DNA from: Methylobacterium oryzae
Lineage (GTDB): Bacteria; Pseudomonadota; Alphaproteobacteria; Rhizobiales; Beijerinckiaceae
Assembly (NCBI RefSeq): GCF_021398735.1
Contig: NZ_CP090349.1
Coordinates: 186,001 to 250,000 of the forward strand
Direction of reading: 5' to 3'
DNA length: 64,000 nt
In this document: piece after piece, positions 11,124-59,021 of the stretch
Layout of the letters: each line of letters begins with the position of its first letter
Position numbering within the stretch: the first letter of the stretch is position 1
Notes under the pieces: generated by a model
Database searches by the model: none
Told to the model about the DNA's origin: nothing
The model's input: the letters and a program-made list of their open reading frames with translations, nothing else
Made by a program: the position numbers and the translations under genes

Positions 11124-11157
11124 CCCGCCGTCATGCCGACGGTGGCATGACAGCGGG
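11124..11157 (-). terminator. Hairpin overlapping the selB stop codon
   Basis: The inverted repeat pairs CCCGC (11124-11128) with GCGGG (11153-11157) and, inside one mismatch, 11130-11137 with 11144-11151 around a 6-nt loop. It overlaps the last codons of selB and could end the SBP-selB transcript. No T-run follows. Confidence 0.45.
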
Positions 11158-13116
11158 ATCCAGCCCCGACCCTCCATGCGCGGCGTCATGCCAGTTCGAG
11201 GGGGCCAGGACGCGCCAATCGGCGCGGATGCGCCGTCCCACCTCGATCCGCACCGTGAACCCCCGTCCATCGAAGAACTCCAGGAGCGGCATGGTCAGGT
11301 TGCGGCCGATGCCGGCCGTCTCGCGAAATCGCCCGACCGTCAGCAGGCCCTCGGGATGCTCCCGCGCCACCGCGTCCGCGATGCGCGCCAGTTCGGAGAC
11401 TGCCTCCGGCAGCGCGTAGTAGTTCTTTGAGACACGCACGAGCCAGCCGAGCCGGCCGACCTTGTCGAGGAGGCGGCGGAGTTCGTCGGGCTGGAGGCCC
11501 AGGCGCTCGGCGAGCACGGTGAGGCGGGGCTGGTCCAAGCCCGCCTCCTCCAGCACGGCGCGAACGGTATCGTAGACGACGGCGTCGGCCGGACGCAGGC
11601 GCGCCACGTGGCCGGGCAAGTGCAGGAGCGCGCCGCATCGCAGGAGCCGTTCCGTCCGGACGAGGACGTCGAGGGCGGCCGGGAGGGCCGGACGTTCCCC
11701 GGCCTCCACCGTCGATGCGATCTCGTCATGAGCGAGCCCGGGGTTGTCGAGCTGCGCCATGTGGGTCCGGGCGAGTTCGGACACCACGCGCGCGGCCAGC
11801 GCGGCGATTCGCGAACCCTGGAACGCGAGCCGCGGGCCATCCTCCGCGACGACCGCACCCTCCTCCGCGACGAGGGCGTCAAGCGTCGCCGCGGGCAAAT
11901 TGCGCAGGCGGGCGAGGCGGGCGAGGTCGACCCCGGGTCCGGAGGTGGCGAGGAGGCCTCGGAGGGCGCGACCGTCATCCACGGTATCGAGCGCCGCGAC
12001 GACCGCCCGGCGTTCTGGCGTCCAGGCGCCCCGGCGCGGCCCGTCCACGTCGAGCACCCGACCGCCCCCGAGCGTGCGCATCGCCGAGACGTCGCGCAGG
12101 ACGAAGTGGTCCCCGGCCAGGGCGCCGATCTCGCGGTCGAGCGTGATCACCGCCCGGGCGGTCGCGCCCGGTTCGACCGACCTAGCCTCGGGGAGCAACA
12201 ACCGTCCCGTCACCGCGGCCGCCCCGAGATGGAGATGCACCGAGGTACGGTGGCGCAGGGGCCGACCCTCGTGCGGCAGCACGCGCACGGAGACGTCGAG
12301 GCGGGTCGCCGGGCCGTGCAGGTCCGGCGCCAGGACCCACGTGCCCCGACCCACGTCGTCGAGGGACAACCGGGGACCGGCCAGGTTCAGGGCGCAGCGC
12401 TCCCCGGCGCGCGCGGTCTCGGCCACCGCGTCGTGGACGCGCACGCCGCGCACCCGGACCTCGCGCCCGCCAGGCGAGACGAGGAGCCGGTCGCCCACCC
12501 TCACCGTGCCCGCGTGCACTGCGCCGGTCACGACCAACCCGGCACCGGGCACGGTGAAGCGCCGGTCGACTGCGAGCCGGAAACCGCGATCCGCCCCTGC
12601 TGGGGCGTGGGAGGCCGCCGCGGCCTCCAGCAGGCGGGCGAGGTCGTCGATGCCCGATCCCGTCAGCGCCGAGCAGGCTACGACCGGTGCCTCCGCGAGC
12701 CCGGTGCCGGCGAGGAGGGCGTGGATCTCCGCGGTCACCGCCGCGATGCGGTCCGAATCGGCGCGGTCGGCCTTCGTCACCGCGACGACGCCCCGGTCGA
12801 CGCCGAGAAGGTCGAGGATGGCGACGTGCTCACGCGTCTGCGGCATCACCCCGTCGTCGGCGGCGACCACCAGGAGCGCGCAGGCCACGCCGGTGGCGCC
12901 CGCCACCATGGTGCGCACCAGGCGTTCGTGCCCCGGCACGTCGACGAAACCGAGCGGGACCCGCAGGCGACCGTTCCTTGGCGCGTAGGCGAAGCCGAGG
13001 TCGAGGGTGATGCCCCGGGCCTTCTCCTCGGGCAGACGGTCGGCATCGATGCCGGTGAGCGCCTTCACCAGCGCGGTCTTGCCGTGGTCGATATGGCCGG
13101 CAGTGGCGACGATCAT
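11131..13116 (-). CDS. selB: Selenocysteine-specific elongation factor SelB
   Basis: This 661-aa GTPase brings selenocysteyl-tRNA to ribosomes stalled at a UGA followed by a SECIS hairpin. The EF-Tu-like G domain shows G1 GHIDHGKT (residues 7-14), G3 DVPGHE (59-64) and G4 TKAD (114-117). Two or three beta-barrel domains follow, and then C-terminal winged-helix repeats that bind the SECIS (about 400-661; the last includes [26 protein letters not shown], whose family form is the SelB WH4). The start is the ATG giving [13 protein letters not shown]. It lies 57 bp after the UGA-containing SBP gene on the same strand, probably in one transcript. selA, selD and the Sec tRNA are not in the window. 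Confidence 0.96.
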
Positions 13117-13173
13117 GCGGCCTTCTCGTCCGCGAGAGGTGGCGGCGCGGGAGCCCCCGCGCCGCCTTCCGCC

Positions 13174-14661
13174 TCAACCCTTAATCCGGGTCTCGGCGAG
13201 CTCGGACATGCAGGTGTCGTAGGGCGTGAACTCCACCCGGTCCGACACCGCGAACAGCGTGAAGGGCGAGTACAGGAACAGGGCCTTGGCCTCGTCCTGC
13301 AGGTACCGCTCCACCTCGCGCACCACGCCCTCCGTCCCGGTCTCTGGCGTATGCAGGAGCTTGTCGTAGAGGGCGTCGAACCTCGGATCCTCCGGACCCC
13401 GGCGCAGGGTCGCGTCCTTCCCGAAGAACTCCCGGTGCACGCAGGCCACCGGATATTGCGGCGTCCAGTCGAAGTACCATTCGAGCTTGACGTCGAAATC
13501 CTCCGGCAGGTCGCCCCGGTCGCTGACGAAGCGGCAGCCAAGGCCGACCTTGGCAAGGCACTGGCCGATGGCTTCCACCACGCTCTTCCAGGCGGGCGAG
13601 GCGACGAAGACCAGTTCCCGTCCCCTAAGCCCCAGGCCGTCGAACGTGCGCTTGGCACCCTCGGGGTCGTGCGGCATCGGCCTCATGTCCGGGTCCGCGC
13701 CGTAGCGGCCGGGCTGGATGAAGGCCGGGATTACCTCGCCGTAGCCGTGCGCCCCGTGCTCCAGCACGAAGGCCTGGTCGATGGCGAGGTTGAGGGCCCG
13801 GCGGGCCTCCGGGTTGCGCCAAGGCGAGTCCGGACGGTTCTCGTTGAAGACGCCCGTCAGGATCGTCTTCGCCTTCTTCGTCTGGATCTTGCCCTTGTCG
13901 CTTGCCGGGAAGGCATGCGCCTCGTCCGGCGTCAGGTCGAACACCACGTCGACCCGGCCGTCACCGGCCGCCACCGACTTGATGCCCTCGGCCTTGCCGA
14001 TGACGTTGTCGTAGACGATCCGGACCGTCGGCCTACGGGCCGGGTTCCAGTACGTCGGGTTGGGCTCCATGACCACACGGTCGGAGCGGCTATCGATGAG
14101 CGAGACGCCCTCGGTAAGCACGAACGGGCCAGTCCCCCACGGACCAGGCGCGTCGATGACTCACCAATGACCTTCTGCCGAACCCGTCTTCGGGTCGACG
14201 AAGCCCCACTCGTTCCAGAACCGCGTCGACGGCAGGTGCATGCCGCGCAGCTTCATCAGCGCCGCGGAGTCCCCGCCGGGGAAGCGCATGCGGATGGTGC
14301 GGTCGTCCACCGCCTCGCAAGTCACGTCCCGGGCGAAGTTCAGGAAGGCGCCCGGCGGGTGCGGGTTGGTCCATTCCTGGACCTTGTCGAAGCCGAGCTT
14401 GAACATCGCCGCGTTGAAGGGCTCGCCGTCTTGGTAGACCGCGTCCCGCGTCTTCAGTTCGAGGGTCTCCTTGTCGAGCCAGCGCCAGCTCTCGGCGAGG
14501 CTCGGCTGGCCGATGCCGTCGTGGTCGACGCGGTTGGCCTCCTCCATGGTATTCCACGTGATGGAAAGCCAGTTCACCGGCGACGGGTCGACCACCGTCA
14601 CCGTGTTGTGGGATCCCCAGGCCTGGCCGCCCCCCGGATCCCCGGTCGCTTGCGCGTCCAT
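13174..14661 (-). CDS. Family-5 substrate-binding protein with in-frame UGA (predicted selenoprotein)
   Basis: Reading the single TGA at 14163-14161 as selenocysteine gives a continuous 495-aa protein with Sec167 in the context [18 protein letters not shown]. Both sides align to one solute-binding protein family 5 (oligopeptide/nickel type) fold: [19 protein letters not shown] before, and [35 protein letters not shown] and WTPQYP after. There is no frameshift or other stop. The start at 14661 follows a perfect AGGAGG. No signal peptide is visible from this start or from the in-frame upstream ATG at 14784, which is odd for an SBP. No ABC permease or ATPase is adjacent. selB follows by 57 bp. 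A SECIS-like hairpin sits just after the UGA. The alternative is a gene broken by one nonsense mutation. Confidence 0.82.
14128..14149 (-). promoter_or_regulatory. Predicted bacterial SECIS element
   Basis: On the minus strand, 11 nt after the UGA (14163-14161), the RNA can form an outer 3-bp arm GCC/GGC (14149-14147 with 14130-14128). One unpaired U (14146) and an inner 5-bp arm GGUCC/GGACU (14145-14141 with 14135-14131, including one G-U) follow, with a 5-nt loop GUGGG. Counting the U of UGA as 1, the bulged U is 18 and the loop GU is 24-25. In the E. coli fdhF element, as I recall it, these are U17, G23 and U24, with the same spacing between bulge and loop. Confidence 0.75.
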
Positions 14662-14854
14662 GTCTCCTCCTATGTTCGACCCGCATGGCGCGCGGGCATC
14701 GTCCGGCCCATCGCGAGCCGACAAGTTGGAGGGCGCCGGCAATGACGCATGGCCCTCGATAGATCCGCCCGGGTCGCCGGCCATCCCGCCGTCGAACCCA
14801 CGCAGGAAAAATTCGCCTCCGCAGGGAGCATCGCCGCCTGCACGCGGTGCATCC

Positions 14855-15325
14855 TCAGTCCGGGTTGTCGTCCCGGGCCATGCCCGTCGCAGCGACGCGG
14901 TCGGCGAGTTCCTTCAACTCCTGGCGCAGGTCGGCGAGGTCGCGGTCGCCTAGCCCGGTGCGGCAGACTACGGCCTGCTGAGCCTCCGAGACCCTGACCT
15001 CCAACGACCGGCCCGTCTCCGTCAGGGCGACGAGGACGACGCGCCGGTCATCGGCACGGGCGCGAGTGACGAAACCCGCAGCCTCCAGCCGGTCGACCAG
15101 GGGCGTGATCGCGCTGGACGTGAGTTGCAGCCGGGTGGCTAGGTCATGCACCGCCGTCACGCCGTCCTGCCAGAGCGCCAGCATGACGAGGTACTGCGGG
15201 TAGGTCAGCCCGAGCTCGCCCAGTAGCGGCCGGTAGGCGCGCACGACCGAGTTCGTCGCGGCGTAAAGGGCGAAGCAAAGTTGGTCGTCAAGCCTGAGCC
15301 CAGGCTGCTTGGTCGATGTCGCCAT
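14855..15325 (-). CDS. OhrR-type MarR family redox regulator
   Basis: This 156-aa winged-helix repressor resembles OhrR most closely. The N-terminus reads LDDQLCFALYAATNSVVRAYRPLL, with the sensing Cys at residue 17. The winged helix (LTSSAITPLVDRLEAAGFVTRARADDRRVVLVALT) spans about 68-101. A second Cys at 121 fits the two-cysteine OhrR class, in which organic peroxides drive a disulfide and release DNA. No ohr gene is nearby. The next gene on the same strand is the predicted selenoprotein, 193 bp downstream, so co-regulation is possible. A near-perfect 20-bp palindrome 25 bp upstream of its start is a likely autoregulatory operator. Confidence 0.9.
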   Translation of the reverse strand: MATSTKQPGLRLDDQLCFALYAATNSVVRAYRPLLGELGLTYPQYLVMLALWQDGVTAVHDLATRLQLTSSAITPLVDRLEAAGFVTRARADDRRVVLVALTETGRSLEVRVSEAQQAVVCRTGLGDRDLADLRQELKELADRVAATGMARDDNPD

Positions 15326-24382: not shown

Positions 24383-24693
24383 AACGCGCCGTCGGCGCGT
24401 CGTCGAGCCGTGGCCAGCCCTGTATGACACAGCAGGAGCGGTAGCGGACGGCAACAGTACGGCTGTGATTACAGCAAGAGTGAAGGCATTCCACCACACG
24501 CATTGAGGATGCAGGCTGCTCCTCTTGCGGGGCGGAGGTCCAGCTGTTCTGCTTGGCTCCCATTTCATCGGTGTCGAGGCCCCAGATATACTCCAGCTCA
24601 GGGTCGGCAAGAAAACGCTACCTGTAAGCTGGTGGCGCACAATTGTGCTTGTGCTGCCAGAGGCATCCGGCTACGAACTGCACCCCGGACAAG

Positions 24694-24717
24694 AAAAAGC
24701 CGCCCACAAGGAGCGGC
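24694..24717 (-). terminator. Intrinsic terminator, minus strand
   Basis: Read on the minus strand, GCCGC (24717-24713) pairs with GCGGC (24703-24699), followed by T5 (24698-24694). It could serve the small minus-strand membrane protein gene that ends at 24895. The stretch 24383-24894 otherwise holds no gene I can support. Confidence 0.55.
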
Positions 24718-24748
24718 CTGAAGTCTAGGGAGGAAACGCCCAAGAAGG

Positions 24749-24783
24749 GCTGCGGGACGGCGACGCCATCGCTGTCCCGCAGC
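24749..24783. terminator. Strong 10-bp hairpin
   Basis: GCTGCGGGAC (24749-24758) pairs perfectly with GTCCCGCAGC (24774-24783) around a 15-nt loop. It lies in non-coding DNA between convergent small genes and may be a terminator or an RNA element. No T-run follows on either strand. Confidence 0.4.
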
Positions 24784-47320: not shown

Positions 47321-48549
<1,229 letters not shown>

Positions 48550-58718: not shown

Positions 58719-59021
58719 GCGGCGGTCCACCTTCTCCCGATGCGGACGGGCCACTGCCGACCCGGCATGGTCATTCAACGCCTGCAGCCGGGATCCCCAA
58801 AGCAGACGAAGCCCACAACCGCTGGAAGGCGACTTTCGACCTTTGTTTCTTCTGGGATGCGCTCGTTGGGAGGGTGCCTCTGAGCTCCTTCGCTGCCGGC
58901 GAGACACATAGGCACGGGTTGAACCCAATCGCTTTCAATGCAATAGGCCCGGCAGGGTGCGCGGTCCGTCTAGTCGGGCCGGCAGGTCGAGCGCTGGTCG
59001 GGCCGCCAGCGCCGGAGACCC
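58719..59021. other. Intergenic region
   Basis: Boundary between the accessory region and the ion-transport group. I see no gene, tRNA or clear attachment site. Confidence 0.4.

Follow-up and report, generated by a model that had tools for sequence, protein, structure and literature searches.

A predicted selenoprotein family with a family-5 substrate-binding protein fold, linked to a second SelB lineage in Methylobacterium

The window, a 64,000-nucleotide stretch of Methylobacterium oryzae DNA, carries on its minus strand a predicted family-5 substrate-binding protein (SBP) gene lying between selB and the gene of a MarR-family regulator, which we take to be OhrR-like by motif (Table 1). Translation of the minus strand from 14661 to 13174 meets a single internal TGA; the plus strand over the same interval is not the SBP gene. 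The original prediction of a 495-codon frame with exactly one TGA, at codon 167, was therefore right and had left out only the strand, and its placement of selB 57 bases downstream on the same strand (spacer 13117-13173) also held, with the selB product scoring above the TIGR00475 cut-off. A 1045-codon open frame runs antisense to SBP and selB (11608-14745, plus strand) and is probably a by-product of high G+C.

Table 1. Features of the SBP locus and Rfam matches elsewhere in the window.
Feature	Position	Strand	Remarks
selB, SBP-linked lineage	11131..13116	-	TIGR00475 367.6-367.7 bits, cut-off 242.25; SelB-wing_3
Family-5 SBP selenoprotein gene, predicted	13174..14661	-	495 codons; UGA at codon 167; stop TGA 13176-13174
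SECIS-like hairpin	14119..14158	-	core stem GGUCC/GGACU; loop GUGGG, loop bases 14140-14136
In-frame UGA, codon 167, inferred Sec	14161..14163	-	TGA in homologues spanning the site
Shine-Dalgarno-like GGAGGAG	14664..14670	-	precedes ATG at 14661; read directly
MarR-family regulator	14855..15325	-	PF01047; upstream of SBP, same strand
suhB/mmgR small RNA (Rfam match)	24684-24757	-	
ALIL pseudoknot (Rfam match)	47602-47718	+	presumably an insertion-sequence frameshift element
nhaA-I riboswitch (Rfam match)	58955-59011	+	

Family-consistent sequence had been claimed for both sides of the TGA, and with that codon read as cysteine, Pfam SBP_bac_5 (PF00496) indeed gives one continuous match, residues 52-376, that runs through it (112.8 bits, cut-off 32.4). 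An AF2 model of the full-length protein (mean pLDDT 94.2) adopts an ordinary SBP fold; the solved folds closest to it include AapF, YliB, NikA, AccA and DppA, and AccA is the nearest solved structure by sequence. The residue at codon 167, written U in the surrounding motif GHWUVID, stands in a family-specific loop, GSAEGHWU, which lies immediately before the GTGPF strand and is missing from the typical family-5 SBP members that we aligned.

Among 29 loci compared, all 24 that span the site carry TGA there, at identities of 51% and above, and the 19-residue context around the UGA is of a similar type across them. These comprise the window's own gene (L001) and L006-L028, with one gene represented twice, as L006 and L023; the five others are a remnant ending at residue 85 (L029), a paralogue of 24% identity that lacks the TGA (L002) and three loci without a match at E 1e-10 (L003-L005). 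The ordinary sense codon that the original prediction proposed to look for at position 167 in close homologues was thus not the case in any spanning locus, and TGA-167 looks, from these alignments, to be functional and not a product of chance. Within the genus, 22 of 111 genomes possess the gene, and 22 of the 23 matches have one TGA; the 23rd is a remnant covering residues 1-85 that ends before the TGA site. Broader sampling recovered the gene from 3 of 199 genomes of the family (its own included, the other two belonging to other genera), from its own genome only among 385 genomes of the class and again among 398 of the phylum, and, among 395 genomes of the order of a Rhodospirillales metagenome-assembled genome (MAG), from that MAG only, as two copies that both have the TGA. 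The gene family is rare among sampled genomes.

Protein records reflect the internal codon. When the whole protein was the query, the best 120 of 444 matches (7999 candidates scored) were all 295-356 residues long, and of the best 120 of 208 matches to the N-terminal half, 118 have as their last residue the Trp that precedes the UGA; C-terminal database pieces mostly begin directly after the UGA or at a nearby downstream start codon. Copies whose annotation we inspected are fragments or unannotated; the original prediction had anticipated that ordinary gene callers would split the gene or call it broken. Judging by these fragment ends and starts, the UGA is probably also present in the most distant members, from Gemmatimonadales and other environmental sources, which are known only as proteins. 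Five distant environmental C-terminal pieces with 30-37% identity (P0133, P0134, P0142, P0149 and P0151) start exactly after the UGA position, and several of them have HWSRR or HWSRK near the C-terminus. The same tail occurs in two full-length homologues with Gln at the site (P0124 and P0125), so that there may be a second branch containing Sec as well as Gln forms.

Could the gene simply be a pseudogene with a premature stop? On an M. radiotolerans plasmid described below, MarR and selB are annotated, no feature lies under the SBP match, two locus tags are skipped and the gene table omits pseudogenes, a pattern suggesting that the copy was called as one. Nonetheless, the same stop recurs in every spanning locus down to 51% identity, and pN/pS values against ten relatives (0.06-0.71 before the UGA and 0.28-0.83 after it) indicate purifying selection on both sides. 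Moreover, truly broken copies (L029 and L028/G655) look different and are without an intact linked SelB. A premature stop is scarcely credible on these grounds. A conserved split gene, in which the UGA is a real stop and halves of 166 and ~315 residues are made separately and assemble, would fit the presence of both halves in databases as separate proteins and the occurrence of GTG, a possible start, as the codon after the UGA in 9 of 24 sequences. In the other 15, however, this codon is GTC, which is no start, and restart at codon 168 is excluded only in these sequences. The 13 codons after the UGA show 0-1 amino-acid changes in each of 10 comparisons, and in the window, where GTC follows the UGA and the first start codon is 181, restart could not reach this conserved stretch and would remove it from the product. 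The full-length AF2 model, an ordinary SBP, also argues against separate halves, and the frozen synonymous codons, SelB linkage and co-occurrence with selA and tRNA-Sec presented below would be left unexplained, making a split gene highly improbable. Given UGA conservation, selection, frozen codons and SelB linkage, both the pseudogene and the split gene were judged very unlikely.

A SECIS-like hairpin lies ~20 bases downstream of the UGA, where it would direct Sec insertion; the first G of its loop is nucleotide 24, counting the U of UGA as 1. Bacterial SECIS loops start, as a rule, with G/U, and in silico we find both a hairpin just downstream and G/U at the start of its loop. Folding the 49 bases from the UGA gives -21.5 kcal/mol compared to -16.4 for shuffles (z -2.06), with 6 of 200 shuffles as good. 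Inside the stem-loop, codons 173 (GGT), 174 (CCG) and 176 (GGG) are invariant in 24 of 24 sequences, even though GGT and GGG make up just 15% and 17% of Gly codons in SBP genes, and ACT, at 4% of Thr codons in these genes, is kept in 22 of 24. Across the same 24 sequences, 82 columns combine an unchanging amino acid with at least four synonymous codons; the codon itself is invariant in only 6 of them, and three of the six are codons 173, 174 and 176 (hypergeometric p 0.002 for clustering in the stem-loop, a value that ignores relatedness and uses stem columns chosen after the codons had been seen). Standard pairs occupy 93.8% of cells versus 25-50% when the stem is slid, and the position adjoining the core stem holds U or C. 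Covariation appears slight, consisting of one compensatory pair, C-G to U-A (L007 and L024; also L074), with four of five measures reached by 83-207 of 500 shuffles and the fifth by 15. Since these shuffle controls were mostly not exceeded, the case for the hairpin rests on the frozen codons and not on covariation.

The genome itself encodes selA, tRNA-Sec, selD and two SelBs over cut-off, so that an in-frame UGA in conserved coding sequence is found together with selA, selB, selC and selD. It also has a predicted Sec formate dehydrogenase (1412 bits, internal TGA) with a hairpin whose loop is GUU and whose loop G-U falls at 23-24 from the UGA, and the SECIS loop of E. coli fdhF likewise has its G-U at 23-24. 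At default settings the tRNA-Sec model matches all 111 genus genomes (110 over cut-off) and all 14 controls, and for this reason only a separate group of 47 genomes, scoring at least 73 bits, was counted; we set this threshold ourselves, and the next score below is 59.8. selA is likewise detected in 47 of 111 genomes, and all 22 genus genomes with the SBP gene have both selA and tRNA-Sec (Fisher p 1.6e-10 for selA, relatedness ignored).

We also considered that suppression of the UGA might insert Trp or Gln instead of Sec, with the neighboring selB being incidental. Among the matches listed, the nearest full-length sense-codon homologues have Gln (P0124 and P0125) or Gly (P0126) at the site, and the Gln forms are what speaks for suppression. 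The presence of selA and tRNA-Sec in all 22 genus genomes with the gene, a hairpin at SECIS distance and the lack of an intact linked SelB where the SBP is broken all speak against it, and we give suppression very little weight. The original prediction had looked for Sec or Cys in several homologues, mainly in selB-carrying genomes. Of these two, only Sec is predicted in the homologues: neither the protein database (residues 1-260, best 120 of 169 matches) nor whole-genome searches yielded a Cys orthologue at the Sec position. This absence and the slight hairpin covariation are the weak or negative results among our tests for Sec. Cys homologues are usual for bacterial selenoproteins and are not required.

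The linked SelB differs from the second SelB of the genome, which is encoded at C1:1690916 and scores 259.2 bits, over the cut-off. The selB model also matches EF-Tu, and 85 of 111 genus genomes match it, 48 of them over cut-off. Scores of at least 331 bits are confined to the 20 genomes whose SBP is intact and occur in none of the other 91; one further score in this range (G640:C21) comes from an SBP genome and belongs to a SelB that is not a member of the linked clade. Of the 21 full-length SBP copies in the genus, 19 are followed directly by selB on the same strand, ~60-90 bases from the last matched codon, and the remaining two (G619 and G672) have it in the same cluster on the other strand; for a second SBP copy in G102 (L008), the 6.6-kb contig (L049) contains no selB. 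In a midpoint-rooted tree of 32 SelB sequences that we sampled, in which L023 and L039 form long branches, the 21 linked sequences group in a single clade (100/99) that excludes the other 11. The adjacent SelB is, by this phylogeny, a separate second lineage that goes with the SBP, which strengthens the earlier proposal that the SBP is made together with its decoding factor. Neither of the two genus genomes with a broken SBP has an intact linked SelB: in L029 a remnant of SBP residues 1-85 sits beside a SelB remnant of residues 352-637, and in L028/G655 the SBP match ends at residue 190-203. The loss of intact linked SelB where the SBP is broken, and the joint remnants in L029, suggest that SBP and linked selB are gained and lost together.

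Together, the conserved UGA, the hairpin with its frozen codons, selection, linkage and co-loss, all read from the sequences themselves, make it very probable that the gene represents a family of SBP-fold selenoproteins in which UGA-167 is read as Sec and the adjacent selB, of a separate lineage, is passed on with the gene as a cassette. The claim that this UGA codes for Sec is thus supported, by the conserved UGA, the suppressed synonymous change in the hairpin, the presence of selA, selB, selC and selD, and co-occurrence. In this scheme, SelB would bring Sec-tRNA to UGA-167, and the linked selB and the SBP gene would descend together as a two-gene cassette, in addition to a resident SelB that presumably serves formate dehydrogenase. 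The linked SelB may prefer the SBP SECIS. More tentatively, and with somewhat less than even confidence, we propose that the pair forms a mobile recoding cassette, its SelB being devoted mainly to the cassette's own SECIS. If true, each cell would have two Sec-decoding channels sharing tRNA-Sec, SelA and SelD, one reserved for a cytosolic selenoprotein with the SBP fold and the other for formate dehydrogenase, and a SelB found with intact SBP and missing where SBP is broken makes the existence of two separate channels in bacteria testable.

Gene neighborhoods bear on mobility and regulation. A MarR-SBP-selB cassette is carried by an M. radiotolerans plasmid typed as mobilizable (L068, NZ_CP090580.1:274133-283614), near an IS3 transposase, from which we conclude that the cassette can probably move. 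The MarR-SBP order recurs in L009, L010, L011, L018, L026 and L030 as well as on this plasmid, and the MarR gene is not so placed in L012-L017 and L019-L022; the MarR-family protein is a possible regulator of the SBP, with the link holding in part of the clade only. A 45%-identical MarR relative adjoins selA in the own genome (L050:5671-6117), and another heads the Sec cluster of Methylorubrum (L047 and L053). In the Rhodospirillales MAG (L024), SBP, selB, tRNA-Sec and selA are consecutive. The two Methylorubrum genomes, G619 and G672, have the order MarR, a putative selenate-binding protein (TIGR04553, 341.9 bits in L053), PhnC-like and PhnE-like genes (both below curated cut-offs), selB, selA, tRNA-Sec and then SBP on the other strand; L047 additionally contains TlpA/ResA-like and DsbD-like genes and selD, which in G672 is on another contig. 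No Sec formate dehydrogenase was found in either genome, the best match scoring 197-198 bits without a stop against a cut-off of 814, whereas four other genomes compared have UGA-bearing formate dehydrogenases over cut-off. As their SelD also lacks an internal stop, the SBP is the only selenoprotein candidate in G619 and G672 once these two alternatives are considered, and it may be why they keep the 21st amino acid.

The protein in the window has no signal peptide, lipobox or hydrophobic N-terminus, and its nearest group is likewise without a signal peptide, so the Methylobacterium protein is probably not a periplasmic transport SBP. No cognate ABC permease or ATPase was found among the four other neighboring window genes scanned. 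By crude rules, a hydrophobic leader is present in 73 of 120 N-terminal database pieces (best 120 of 208), some of them twin-arginine or lipobox-like; 46 fail the leader rule, including six whose leaders of 40-41 residues lie on the cut-off or slightly below it and three with shortened N-termini, and one is without the anchor motif. G102 and G1031 each have one leaderless and one leader-bearing form. Any binding by Sec would take place in the cytosol in Methylobacterium and outside it in other lineages.

With regard to function, Met39, His101, Met136, Arg139, Met141, His142 and Trp149 are among the residues that never vary in Sec-family rows and are seldom found in 36 non-Sec relatives. No conserved Cys column exists in 80 Sec-family rows (44 covering the N-terminal half and 48 the C-terminal), the best reaching 29 of 48, and the lack of a conserved partner Cys favors binding by a single selenol over a Cys-Sec redox pair. 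We suggest, with confidence that is evenly balanced, that Sec binds a soft metal ion or reactive electrophile without cycling with cysteine, and this is the weakest part of our interpretation. A selenol redox enzyme reducing peroxide or disulfides, perhaps controlled by the MarR-type regulator, is in our view unlikely, though it has points in its favor: the MarR gene upstream of SBP in some loci, and the TlpA/ResA-like and DsbD-like genes adjoining the exported Methylorubrum form. One-selenol peroxidases exist. Against redox chemistry stand the missing partner Cys and the fold itself, SBP folds being normally binders. The portion of a 2026 review available to us does state that most uncharacterized selenoproteins are likely to have redox roles (PMC13188914).

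We found no description of a family-5 SBP selenoprotein, or of two SelB genes, in the portions of the literature searched (including PMC13188914, PMC12013277, PMC9312934, PMC5029168, PMC5322559 and PMC8124441). The review counts 119 selenoprotein families, and the part of its table available to us holds SaoB, SaoX and BtuF and no family-5 SBP with a GHWUVID-type motif (PMC13188914). NCBIfam of June 2026 has no model over cut-off for the SBP (5 matches at E 1e-3). The original prediction did not recall the family among listed selenoproteins, and in these table portions, literature and models it is indeed absent. A selenoprotein family with this fold is thus not described in the sources searched; it would add more than 100 database clusters (at least 118 N-terminal), held as two halves, and would place Sec in a binding rather than a catalytic fold, in a family where Cys is not conserved and our searches met no Cys form.

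Among known systems, NikA, AccA, AapF and DppA are family-5 SBPs with ordinary sense codons that are exported and have ABC partners; they are without the extra loop GSAEGHWU, and the SBP scores 65.8 bits with the NikA model TIGR02294, below its cut-off of 393. In the part of the review seen, SaoB and SaoX (NF040727 and NF040735) are also predicted selenoproteins named ABC substrate-binding proteins (PMC13188914), yet their models do not match the SBP at E 1e-3 and their motifs are CUxxT and UxP as opposed to GHWUVID. The cobalamin-binding BtuF selenoprotein is, according to the same portion, likewise a predicted selenoprotein of the binding-protein type, and differs in its domain (cd01144) and CxxU motif (PMC13188914). 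Finally, the Sec formate dehydrogenase FdhA of the same genome shares an internal TGA and a hairpin with the SBP gene, and is an unrelated protein presumably served by the other SelB lineage.
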